Source: Spirochaetales bacterium (lineage in GTDB: Bacteria > Spirochaetota > Spirochaetia > JAFGDJ01). Taken from it: a stretch of DNA of 49,768 nt. Below the pieces are notes generated by a model, which made no database searches, had not been told where the DNA came from, and saw only the letters and a program-made list of their open reading frames with translations. Made by a program: the position numbers and the translations under genes. How positions within the stretch are numbered: the first letter of the stretch is position 1; each line of letters starts with the position of its first letter. The DNA lies in contig JAFGDJ010000077.1 of the NCBI GenBank assembly GCA_016932135.1, positions 1-49,768 on the forward strand. Direction: 5' to 3'. Positions 40,244 through 47,880 of the stretch are shown here, piece by piece.

Positions 40244-40268
40244 GCATGTCAAAACAGATGATTTTCTT

Positions 40269-40305
40269 AAAAGCCGGGGGTACCACACCTCCGGCTTTTG
40301 TTTTA
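40269..40305 (+). terminator. Rho-independent terminator
   Basis: AAAAGCCGG...CCGGCTTTT stem (40269-40277 / 40291-40299) followed by GTTTT, 25 bp after the lipoprotein stop. Confidence 0.85.
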
Positions 40306-40327: not shown

Positions 40328-40672
40328 ATGCCCTATATAAAGATCCAGACCAACCGCACGGTGAATGAAGAACTGAAGGAAAAACTTCTTCTCGGCGCCT
40401 CGTCCCTGGCCTCAGGTATCCTCGGCAAGCCGGAACGCTACGTCATGACGGCCCTGGAAGCTGAGGTGCCCATGACCTTTGCCGGTACCGCCGAGCCTTG
40501 CGCCTTTATCGAGTGCAAGAGTGTCGGTCTGCCGGAATCGAAAACCCGGGAACTCTCAGCCGGGCTCACCGGCCTGGTCACCGAGGAACTGGATATCCTC
40601 CCCGACCGGGTGTACATCGAGTTCGCCGACTCACGAGGGTCTATGTGGGGCTGGGACGGGGGAACCTTTTAG
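40328..40672 (+). CDS. MIF-family (macrophage migration inhibitory factor-like) tautomerase
   Basis: MPYIKIQTN start with N-terminal Pro; LGKPERYVMTALEAEVPMTFAGTAEPCAFIECKSVG; LDILPDRVYIEFADSRGSMWGWDGGTF, closely paralleling metazoan MIF. Confidence 0.92.
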   Translation: MPYIKIQTNRTVNEELKEKLLLGASSLASGILGKPERYVMTALEAEVPMTFAGTAEPCAFIECKSVGLPESKTRELSAGLTGLVTEELDILPDRVYIEFADSRGSMWGWDGGTF

Positions 40673-40675
40673 ACT

Positions 40676-40939
40676 ATGAGCAGAGAAACCTTTCGCCGGG
40701 CCCTCTTCGACACCGTGGAATACATCACCGAGCAGACCCTGCGGACCTCCTCCAAGGTACTGCTGCTGAACCATTTCAACTCCATTGCCGGGGAAACCTC
40801 CAAGGAAAAAGCCTTAAGGACGGTGATGCACTACGCCTGCGTGGATTTCAGCAATATCGAGGCAAACCCCGACCGGCAGCTGAAGAACCTCCTCTACCGC
40901 CTCATGCTGGAAGCCGAGGCCTGGGATCACGCGGAATAA
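40676..40939 (+). CDS. Hypothetical protein
   Basis: 87-aa ORF starting 4 bp after the MIF gene stop; no recognised domain. Confidence 0.6.
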   Translation: MSRETFRRALFDTVEYITEQTLRTSSKVLLLNHFNSIAGETSKEKALRTVMHYACVDFSNIEANPDRQLKNLLYRLMLEAEAWDHAE

Positions 40940-40988
40940 GATTAAAGTCGGAGATGTTTATTCGATGCCAGGTGTGAGGGATCAGGGA

Positions 40989-41018
40989 TCAGTGTGAGCA
41001 TGTTTTACCTCACACTGA
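40989..41018. repeat. Intergenic inverted repeat between convergent genes
   Basis: TCAGTGTGAG (40989-40998) / CTCACACTGA (41009-41018), 10-bp perfect stem and 10-nt loop, preceded by tandem GGGATCAGGGATCAG. Confidence 0.7.
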
Positions 41019-41033
41019 AACCTCACAGTCCCA

Positions 41034-41329: not shown

Positions 41330-43420
41330 ATGGAACATCTCAAACCAGTCATCGGTGTGGATCCGGAAAAATGCGTTAACTGCTATAAATGTATTCTGGT
41401 GTGCCCCGTAAAATTCTGTATGGATGCCGGCGGCGATACGGTTTCCATCAATCATGACCGCTGTATCGGCTGCGGGAACTGCATCGACGCGTGCAGCCAC
41501 GACGCCCGTTTTTCCGTGGATGACTGGAACGCCTTTATGGAAGATCGCCGGGCGGGTAAGAACATCCTGGTCCTGGTGGCTCCTTCCGCCGCAGCCTCCT
41601 TCGGTGAGGACATCCTCCGGGTCAACGGTGCATTGGCGGATCTGGGAGTGAAGGCCTTCTTCGACGTCAGTTTCGGCGCCGAACTGACGGTGAAAAGCTA
41701 CCTGGAATATATCAAGGCGGAGAATCCCGAAACGGTCATCGCCCAGCCCTGTCCGGCGGTGGTGTCGTATATCGAGCTGTACAAGCCGGAACTGCTGCCC
41801 CATCTGGCTCCGGCGGACAGCCCCATGCTTCATACCGTCAAGATGATCCGGGAATTCTACGGGGAATACCGGGGCTATACCATGGTCGTGCTTTCTCCGT
41901 GTCTGGCCAAGCGGAGGGAATTCGACGACACCTGCCCGGAGCTTTTAAACATCAGTTTTGCGTCCCTGGAAAAGCATCTTTCCGCGGAGGGTAAAAAGAT
42001 CACCGACTTTCCGGAGGTTCCCTTTACCTCTTCCGAAGCCGAGCGGGCAGTGTTGTTTTCCACCCCCGGGGGGCTCATGGCCACCTTGCGGCGGGATAAC
42101 CCTGAGGCGGCGGAACGGGTGAGAAAGATCGAAGGGCCGGAGTACTTGTACCCCTATTTTAAGGAGCTTCCCAAGGCGATACGCTCCGGAGAGGCCCCCC
42201 TGCTGGTGGATTGCCTGAACTGCGAAAAGGGCTGCAACGGAGGCACCGGCACCTCCGTCCGCTCAGAGAGCCAGGATATTATCGATTCCCGGGTGCGGGA
42301 GAGAGCGGAACAGGCGAAGAGATCCTACGGTTCGAAAGATATACCTAAAAAGGACAGCCGTAAAGTGGCTTCCGTTTTAAAAAAATACTGGAAACCGGGA
42401 CTTTACCATCGACATTACCGGGACAGATCGGCCGACGCCGCCATCCGGCGGCCGACGGATAAGGAGAAATGGGATATTTTCCACAGCATGGAGAAGCACG
42501 CGGAGGGAGATATCTACAACTGTTCCTCCTGCGGCTATGACACCTGCGACGATATGGCGGCGGCCATCCATAATGGACTGAATAAGCGGGAGAACTGCCA
42601 CCATTTCCAACTGGCTCTCATGGAAAAGGTTCGACGAACCACTAAATCCATATCCACCCGTCTGCACGAAGAAATCGTCACCACCGGTACGGAGGTGGTC
42701 CGGCGGACCGCCGGCCTGGTGGGGAATCTTATGAAGGGCACGGAGCTTCAGCATCGCTCAGTGGAAGAATCCTCCGCCGTGGTGGAAGAACTCCTGGCAT
42801 CCGTCCGGAATGTCTCGGATATGTCTTCTCACCGGAAAACGGAAATCGACGGGCTGATCGACCAGGCCTCCCAGGGTATTCTGCAGTTAAATAAAACCGT
42901 CCAGGGTGTCCGGGACATCCTGAAACACCTCGCGGGGATCCAGGAAATGAACGAACTCATTTCCCACGTCTCTTCCAGCACCAATCTGCTGGCCATGAAC
43001 GCCGCCATTGAAGCGGCCCACGCTGGGCAGGCGGGCAGGGGCTTCGCGGTGGTGGCCGACGAGATCAGAAAGCTGGCGGAAACCTCTTCTCATCATGTTC
43101 ACGGTATCTCGGAAAACCTGAAAGGTATTACCCGGCAGGTTAAGGACACCGCCGATATCTCGGAGAACACGGGAAAGGACCTGGAAGCCATGATCACCCG
43201 CTTCCAGGGTGTGGCGGGAAGTTTTGTGGAGCTCATCGGCACCATGGAAGAAATGTCCGCCGGCGGCAGCGTGGTGAACGAATCCCTGGTGGTCTTGAAT
43301 GATACCGCCCGGGACGTTCAGGGCTTCTGCACCCGGATGGAGGGCATCAGTACGGAGCTGGCGACGCTTTTTTCCTCTATCCAGGGGCTTTCGGAAGAGA
43401 ACCTGCAGGCTTTCAACTGA
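41330..43420 (+). CDS. Chemoreceptor-like fusion: 2x[4Fe-4S] ferredoxin, [FeFe]-hydrogenase H-cluster domain, FeS domain, MCP signalling domain
   Basis: [12 protein letters not shown] and [12 protein letters not shown]-cluster motifs [56 protein letters not shown] hairpin [33 protein letters not shown]. No TM segment. Confidence 0.92.
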
Positions 43421-43576: not shown

Positions 43577-45646
43577 GTGGATAGTAGTTTTGTTTTGTAT
43601 ACCGCCCTGGGCGGCAGCCTTCTTGCCCTGGGGTTCGCCTTTGTGAAGACCCGGTGGATTTACCGTCGGAAGGTGGACGACAGCGCTCTGGTAAAGATAG
43701 CCGGCTACGTGCAGGAAGGAGCCATGGCCTTTCTTTCCAGGGAATACAGAACCCTTCTTCCCTTCGTGGCCCTGGTGGCGGTTTTCCTGGTCCTGGCAAA
43801 CAAGGGATTTATGAAATTTCAGGCGGTGGCCTTTCTTCTCGGTGCCTTCTGTTCGGCTCTGGCGGGGTTTATCGGCATGCGGGTGGCCACGGCCTCCAAT
43901 TCCCGGACCACCTTCGCGGCGAAAACCGGCATCAACAGCGCCCTGAAGGTGGCTTTTTCCGGCGGCACCGTCATGGGAATGAGCGTGGTGGGCCTTTCCC
44001 TGCTGGGTATCTTTGCTGTCCTGGCCGTTTTTATCCCCCTGTCCGGCGGCGGCGTGGAACAGCTCCGTTCGCTGGTTTTACCCGTCCTGTCGGGCTTTTC
44101 CCTGGGAGCTTCCACCATCGCCCTTTTTTCCCGGGTGGGCGGCGGTATTTTCACCAAGGCGGCGGATGTGGGAGCCGACCTGGTGGGCAAGGTGGAAGCG
44201 GGAATTCCGGAGGACGACCCGCGAAACCCGGCTACCATCGCCGACAACGTGGGGGATAACGTGGGGGATGTGGCCGGCATGGGGGCGGATCTCTTCGAAT
44301 CCTACGTGGGCTCCATCGTGGGAGCCATGATTTTAGGGCTTTCCGTCCGGGGATCCGACGCCCTGCGGCTGAAGCTTGCCGGGATACCCCTGCTGCTGGC
44401 GGTAACCGGCCTGGCGGCTTCGGTTATCGGCGTGTTCTTTGTCAGGACAAAACCGGGCAAATCCCCCCAGCGAGCTCTGAACACCGGCACCTTTGGAGCG
44501 GCGATCCTTTCAGCGGTTTTTTCCTTTTTTCTGTTCAGATATTACCTGGGAAACGAAACCTTCAACGGCTCCGTCGGATATATGGCGGTTTTCGGCTCCA
44601 CCGTCATCGGCCTGGTTACCGGGGTGATTATCGGCCTGGTTACCGAATATTACACCGGCACGGATAAACGGCCGGTCCTTCATATCGTGAAATCCAGTGA
44701 ATCGGGAACCGCCACCAACCTCATTACGGGTATCGGCGTGGGCATGATGTCCACCTTCCCGGTGGTTCTTCTCATCGGCGGCGCGATGCTTTTAAGCAAT
44801 TTCCTGGCGGGGCTCTACGGCATCGCCGTGGCCGCCGTAGGCATGCTGGTTACCCTGGGGATTCAGCTGGCCGTGGACGCCTATGGTCCCATCGCCGACA
44901 ACGCCGGCGGTCTGGCGGAAATGGCGGAATTCCCCCATGACGTGCGGCAGGTTACCGATACCCTGGACGCCGTGGGAAACACCACCGCCGCCATCGGAAA
45001 AGGCTTTGCCATCGGCTCCGCCGCTTTGACGGCCATCATTCTCTTTTCATCTTTCAAGGAACAACTGGGTATTGAAACCATCGACATCACCCGGGTCCCC
45101 GTGCTGGTGGGTCTGCTCATCGGGGCGGTGGTTCCTTTTCTCTTTTCCTCTCTGGCCATGGATGCCGTGGGTAAGGCGGCCTTCAAGATGATCGAGGAAG
45201 TCCGCCGGCAGTTCAGGGAACATCCCGGCATCCTGCAGGACCGGGATGAACCGGATTACAAGAAATGTGTCGACATAAGCACCTCGTCGGCCTTGAAACT
45301 CATGCTGCTTCCCGGGGTGATAGCGGTGCTTTTGCCGATTCTGGTGGGTTTCCTGGCGGGAATAGAGATGCTCATCGGCCTTCTTACCGGGGTGACCGCT
45401 TCGGGGGTTATTCTGGCGATCTTTATGTCCAACGCCGGAGGAGCCTGGGATAACGCCAAGAAGATGATCGAAGGCGGCCTCCTGGGCGGAAAGGGATCGG
45501 ACGCCCACAAGGCTTCCGTGGTGGGGGATACGGTGGGGGATCCTTTCAAGGATACCGCCGGACCTTCCTTGAATATTCTGATCAAGTTGATGTCGGTAGT
45601 TTCCCTGGTTATCGCGCCGATGTTGAAATCTTTTCACGGTTTCTAG
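43577..45646 (+). CDS. hppA: Membrane-bound ion-translocating pyrophosphatase (copy 1)
   Basis: [105 protein letters not shown] start. Confidence 0.94.
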
Positions 45647-45684: not shown

Positions 45685-47880
45685 ATGCTAAGCAGTTTGT
45701 TCTGGATTGTGCCTGCCTGCGCGGTTCTCGCCCTGGTTTTCGCTTTTTCCTTTTATCGACAGATGAAAAAGAAGAGCGAAGGAACCGAACAAATGATGAA
45801 AATCGCCTCCTATGTGCGGCAGGGGGCCATGGCCTATTTGAAGCAGCAATATAAAGTCGTCCTTCTGGTCTTCGCCGTTCTGACGGTGTTCTTTTCCCTG
45901 CTGGCCTATGTGTTCAAGGTGCAGAACCCCTGGGTCCCCGGGGCTTTTCTGACCGGCGGTTTCTTTTCCGCCCTGGCGGGGTTTTTCGGGATGAAGACCG
46001 CCACCCATGCTTCCGCCAGAACCGCTAACGCGGCCCGGGACTCGCTGAACAGCGGTTTGCAGGTGGCTTTTCGCAGCGGAGCGGTGATGGGCCTGGTGGT
46101 GGTGGGTCTCGGTCTTCTGGACATCTCCATCTGGTTTGTCATTCTTAACGTCGCCTATCCGGTGGCGGAACACGGAACCCATGGGCTGGTGATCATCACC
46201 ACCACCATGCTGACCTTCGGCATGGGTGCCTCTACCCAGGCCCTCTTCGCCAGGGTCGGCGGGGGGATCTTTACCAAGGCCGCCGACGTGGGGGCCGACC
46301 TGGTGGGCAAGGTTGAGGCGGGGATTCCCGAAGACGACCAAAGGAACCCGGCGACCATCGCGGACAACGTGGGAGACAACGTGGGGGACGTGGCCGGCAT
46401 GGGCGCCGACCTTTACGAATCTTACTGCGGTTCCGTTTTAGCCACCGCCGCCCTGGGGGCCGCCGCCTTTACCGGCAGTGTGGACATCCAGTTCAAGGCG
46501 GTCATCGCGCCGATGATCATCGCCGCCTTCGGAACGGTGCTGTCGATCCTGGGGATCTTCGCCGTAAAAACAAGGGAAAACGCGGATCAGCGCCTGCTCC
46601 TCAAGGCCTTGAACCGGGGCATCAACCTGAGCTCGGTGCTTATCATCCTTGTATCCTTTTTCGTGCTCCGCTTCCTGGGAATCCCCAACTCCCTGGGTAT
46701 CTGGGGGTCCATCGTTACCGGCCTGCTGGTGGGTATCGGGATCGGCAAGGTGACCGAGTATTACACCTCGTCATCCTACAAACCGACCCAGGAGATTTCC
46801 CGGAACGCCCAGACAGGACCTGCTACGGTTATCATCGCCGGCCTCGGTACGGGGATGCTTTCCACCGCCTTTCCGGTTCTCTTTATCGTCGTAGGCACCA
46901 TTTTCGCCTATCTGTTCTCGGCGGGTTTCGACATGAGCAATATGAGCATGGGGCTCTACGGCATCGGCATTGCCGCCGTGGGGATGCTTTCAACCCTGGG
47001 CATTACCCTGGCCACCGACGCCTACGGTCCCATCGCCGATAACGCCGGCGGGAACGCCGAGATGTCCGGCCTGGGTAAAGAGGTCCGAACCCGGACCGAC
47101 GCCCTGGACTCCCTGGGCAACACCACCGCCGCCACGGGAAAAGGCTTTGCCATCGGATCGGCGGCCTTAACGGCCCTGGCCCTTCTGGCTTCGTATATTG
47201 AAGAGATCAAGATCGGCCTGGTGAGGATCGGCCGTACCGTCCTTGAGTTCGAGGACGGTCACACCATAGAAACGGTGAAGGCGACCCTGACGGATTTCAT
47301 GAATTATTACGACGTCAACCTGATGAATCCTAAAGTGCTGGTGGGAATGTTTACCGGATCCATGCTGGCCTTTCTGTTCTGCGGTCTTACCATGAACGCC
47401 GTGGGCGCTGCGGCGGGTAAGATGGTGGAAGAAGTCCGTCGTCAGTTCAGAACCATCGCCGGTATCCTGGAAGGGGAGGCCGAACCGGACTACGCCCGAT
47501 GTGTCGCCATTTCCACCAAGGGCGCCCAGACCGCCATGATCGTACCGTCGCTGCTGGCCATCATCGCTCCCATCGTTATGGGGGTGATCTTCGGAGTCGC
47601 CGGTGTCATGGGGATTCTTACCGGCGGGCTCGCCGCAGGTTTCGTCCTGGCGGTTTTTATGGCCAACTCGGGCGGAGCCTGGGACAACGCCAAGAAGTAT
47701 ATCGAGGAAGGAAACTTCGGAGGAAAGAACTCCGATTCTCATAAAGCGGCGATCATCGGTGATACCGTGGGCGATCCCTTTAAGGACACCTCGGGACCGT
47801 CCCTGAATATCCTGATAAAGCTCATGACCATGGTTTCCATCGTGATGGCCGGTCTTACCGTTGCCTTCTCCATCCTTTAA
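45685..47880 (+). CDS. hppA: Membrane-bound ion-translocating pyrophosphatase (copy 2)
   Basis: [88 protein letters not shown]. Confidence 0.95.

Follow-up and report, generated by a model that had tools for sequence, protein, structure and literature searches.

The window, by which we mean the whole 49,768-nucleotide stretch of Spirochaetales DNA analyzed here, carries at positions 40328-40672 of the forward strand a gene for a predicted tautomerase of 114 amino acids. The open reading frame starts with an ATG at 40328, shortly downstream of a Shine-Dalgarno-like AGGAGG, and ends with a stop codon at 40670-40672; it is a real gene. Between it and the upstream gene lies a hairpin resembling an intrinsic terminator (40268-40300, forward strand), with a 14-bp stem followed by a T-rich stretch. 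A simple scan for such hairpins yields a number near chance (1 found, 1.1 expected); support for this one comes from its predicted fold (-25.4 kcal/mol, z-score -3.0). A second open reading frame (40676-40939) begins on the same strand three bases after the stop codon of the first. It encodes a protein of 87 amino acids, helical by prediction and outside known families, and is probably co-transcribed with the tautomerase gene here. Homologues with 27-42% identity occur in 18 further genomes of our sample of the window's phylum, all outside the window's class; this second frame is therefore also a real gene.

Do the two genes form a functional unit? The initial annotation had described a two-gene unit, and their adjacency bears this out. 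The conservation of the pairing does not. A two-gene module, in which the 87-residue protein regulates or partners the tautomerase, is suggested by the three-base gap, the shared strand and the terminator-like hairpin 5' of the pair, but the other genomes speak against it. No homologue of the small protein appears in any of their tautomerase loci examined, and no tautomerase homologue in any of their loci for the small protein. Seven genomes that carry relatives of the tautomerase lack the small protein, the neighbors of its gene vary from genome to genome, and in the phylum sample no genome but the window's is on both lists of matches. Since the two genes are not paired in the other loci examined, the pairing is local, and we consider such a module improbable. 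Slightly more doubtful still is cooperation confined to the window's lineage, in which the helical protein might, for example, bind the tautomerase trimer and set its substrate or activity. As for the small protein itself, Leu29, Asn35, Ala46, Tyr53, Leu69 and Trp83 are invariant across its family, which matches no Pfam or NCBIfam model and has no convincing relative in the PDB. A single-sequence prediction gives four helices (pLDDT 75) with no fold match below an E-value of 0.001. We take the family to be real and, going by this model, probably helical.

The 114-residue protein, in contrast to its neighbor, is readily placed. Its translation, MPYIKIQTNRTVN...WGWDGGTF, matches the Pfam MIF family (PF01187) from end to end, with residues 2-114 aligned to positions 1-113 of the 114-position profile (E = 7.4e-20; 71.8 bits against a curated cut-off of 22). 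Among solved structures the best match is 2xcz, the MIF of Prochlorococcus marinus (1.9e-24), followed by Arabidopsis MDL2 (8ap3) and then by vertebrate MIFs. No NCBIfam model matches. Judged by sequence, the agreement with PF01187 and 2xcz lies far beyond chance. The predicted fold points the same way: an AlphaFold2 monomer model built from a 28-row alignment has the expected order of elements (pLDDT 88.8), and Foldseek returns 2xcz as its top match (4.3e-12), as expected of a MIF fold. The final 14 residues of the model are of low confidence, which would be expected if this segment packs in the trimer, since the model is of a monomer. The protein, encoded by a single copy in the window's genome, very probably belongs, as a bacterial member, to the MIF family within the tautomerase superfamily.

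The motifs named in the initial annotation (Pro2, GKP, AEPCA, ILPDRVYIEF, WGWDGGTF and CAFI) are all present as quoted. In an alignment of 68 bacterial sequences, the window protein included, the proline directly after the initiator methionine (codon 40331-40333) is found in all 68 and is the predicted catalytic base. Lys34 (40427-40429), which aligns with human MIF Lys-33 when Met1 is counted, is likewise present in 68 of 68, so that the tautomerase-site proline and lysine are retained as stated earlier. The active-site Tyr96 (40613-40615) is shared by 67 sequences, and Trp107 by every one.

The second cysteine of the CXXC motif is lacking, as had been noted: where vertebrate MIF has CALC, the window protein has CAFI (40499-40510). 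This is not a peculiarity of the window protein, since none of the 68 bacterial sequences has CXXC at the vertebrate position (57-60, human numbering), the motif that thiol-protein oxidoreductase function calls for. In sequence terms, its absence is the norm among bacterial MIFs. Among the groups examined in a published comparison, the only consensus to show the motif is that of the animal-parasitic nematodes (PMC6826473). Cys58 is present in 5 of the 47 sequences closest to the window protein. Glu98, where vertebrate MIF has asparagine, occurs in 44 of these 47 and so marks the near bacterial group. Because Val66 and Glu98 replace Ile65 and Asn98 of the human protein, the range of substrates may differ from that of vertebrate MIF.

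Comparison with known MIFs shows where the likeness is greatest. Prochlorococcus MIF matches over its full length and shares Pro2, the active-site lysine and tyrosine, the WGW(N/D)G(S/G)TF end and the lack of CXXC; structural alignment gives 43% identity, and 2xcz has glycine in place of Glu98. Arabidopsis MDL1 and MDL2 (8dq6, 8ap3) share the fold and the GKPE-YVM stretch at 35-37% identity, and MDL2 also lacks CXXC. Vertebrate MIFs (rat 1fim, human 1ca7) have the fold, the active-site lysine and tyrosine and the DPCA/EPCA stretch in common with the window protein but differ at CXXC and at position 98; identity to human MIF is about 31%.

Scanning species genomes gave 42 loci homologous to the window gene. 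The closest homologues (49-59% identity) belong to Gammaproteobacteria, Halanaerobium and Spirochaetota, with cyanobacterial sequences at 42-49%; across the range of 40-59%, Zetaproteobacteria join these groups. Relatives this similar in several bacterial groups indicate that the nearest kin are bacterial and not metazoan. In the phylum sample, 32 of 393 genomes have a PF01187 match, which in many cases is of a more distant type (identity about 27-35%). This second, divergent type comes mostly from one genus of the window's class and has Gly-Ala instead of Cys-Ala in the EPCA stretch.

The phylogeny called for by the initial annotation places the window protein in an unresolved 37-row group (support 95/73) that includes Spirochaetota and proteobacterial sequences; the cyanobacterial MIFs fall elsewhere. 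The tree, built on 115 columns, has long branches and leaves many forks open, and so does not fix the protein's exact sister. Animal and plant MIFs form one long branch inside this group, near gammaproteobacterial sequences, with weak support (84/52); their joining to the group may be a false, long-branch effect. The window protein does not stand beside any animal MIF, and recent transfer from an animal to a bacterium is thus not suggested. The parallel with metazoan MIF drawn earlier is sound as to family membership, but its metazoan emphasis misleads: the window protein is closest to bacterial MIFs, which are a known group, represented by 2xcz and used as an outgroup in PMC6826473.

What does the protein do? 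Its most likely role is that of a keto-enol tautomerase of the phenylpyruvate type, acting as a homotrimer in the cytosol. The initiator methionine would be removed and three subunits would assemble; the N-terminal proline would then serve as the general base when phenylpyruvate-like 2-oxo acids are tautomerized there. A passage of PMC6826473, citing Wasiel et al. 2010, mentions tautomerase activity for a bacterial MIF. In the literature we found no natural substrate reported for any bacterial MIF.

Two other readings are very unlikely. MIF is secreted by some parasites and modulates their hosts (PMC6826473), and the family resemblance might suggest that the window protein is a secreted cytokine mimic acting on an animal or protist host. 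Yet free-living cyanobacteria, Halanaerobium and sediment Gammaproteobacteria all have close relatives of the protein. Its N-terminus (MPYIK) shows no evident signal peptide and carries Pro2, the predicted catalytic residue, and outside the tautomerase site other groups show poor conservation of the motifs of human MIF (PMC6826473). We see no sign of a cytokine role. Hardly more credible is a 4-oxalocrotonate tautomerase or CHMI-type enzyme merely resembling MIF, the placement that the initial annotation named as grounds for giving up its reading: the PF01361 match (2.6e-4) covers only residues 69-111 and at 21.3 bits falls below the cut-off of 22, whereas the match to PF01187 runs the full length and every one of the best solved relatives is a MIF.

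The window gene is an ordinary bacterial MIF-family gene, of a type already known and crystallized from a cyanobacterium (2xcz, released in 2010; Wasiel et al. 2010, cited in PMC6826473), and holds no surprise. The locus adds one bacterial MIF to a group that spans several phyla, here without pathway context. Neighboring genes follow lineage and indicate no common pathway: DUF4124, acetolactate synthase, ketol-acid reductoisomerase and prolyl-tRNA synthetase genes recur in Gammaproteobacteria, a CorA gene in Halanaerobium and a tetrapyrrole-methylase gene in cyanobacteria. We rejected them as a guide to the pathway because they differ in this way. Nor did we see a link to a tautomerase among the gene's other neighbors in the window, an iron-hydrogenase-like/MCP fusion and two membrane pyrophosphatases.

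Some features of these neighbors deserve mention. Between the convergent genes for the 87-residue protein and a 64-residue protein, a perfect 9-bp inverted repeat, CAGTGTGAG...CTCACACTG, was noticed by eye at 40980-41030; no T-run accompanies it. In the fusion protein (41330-43420; 696 residues), a methyl-accepting chemotaxis signaling domain is combined with 4Fe-4S ferredoxin motifs, an FeS domain and an iron-only-hydrogenase C-terminal-type domain. From this composition, it may act in chemotaxis as a cytosolic sensor of redox state or H2. The two membrane-bound pyrophosphatases, of the H_PPase family, are encoded as a tandem pair on one strand, at 43577-45646 and 45685-47880.
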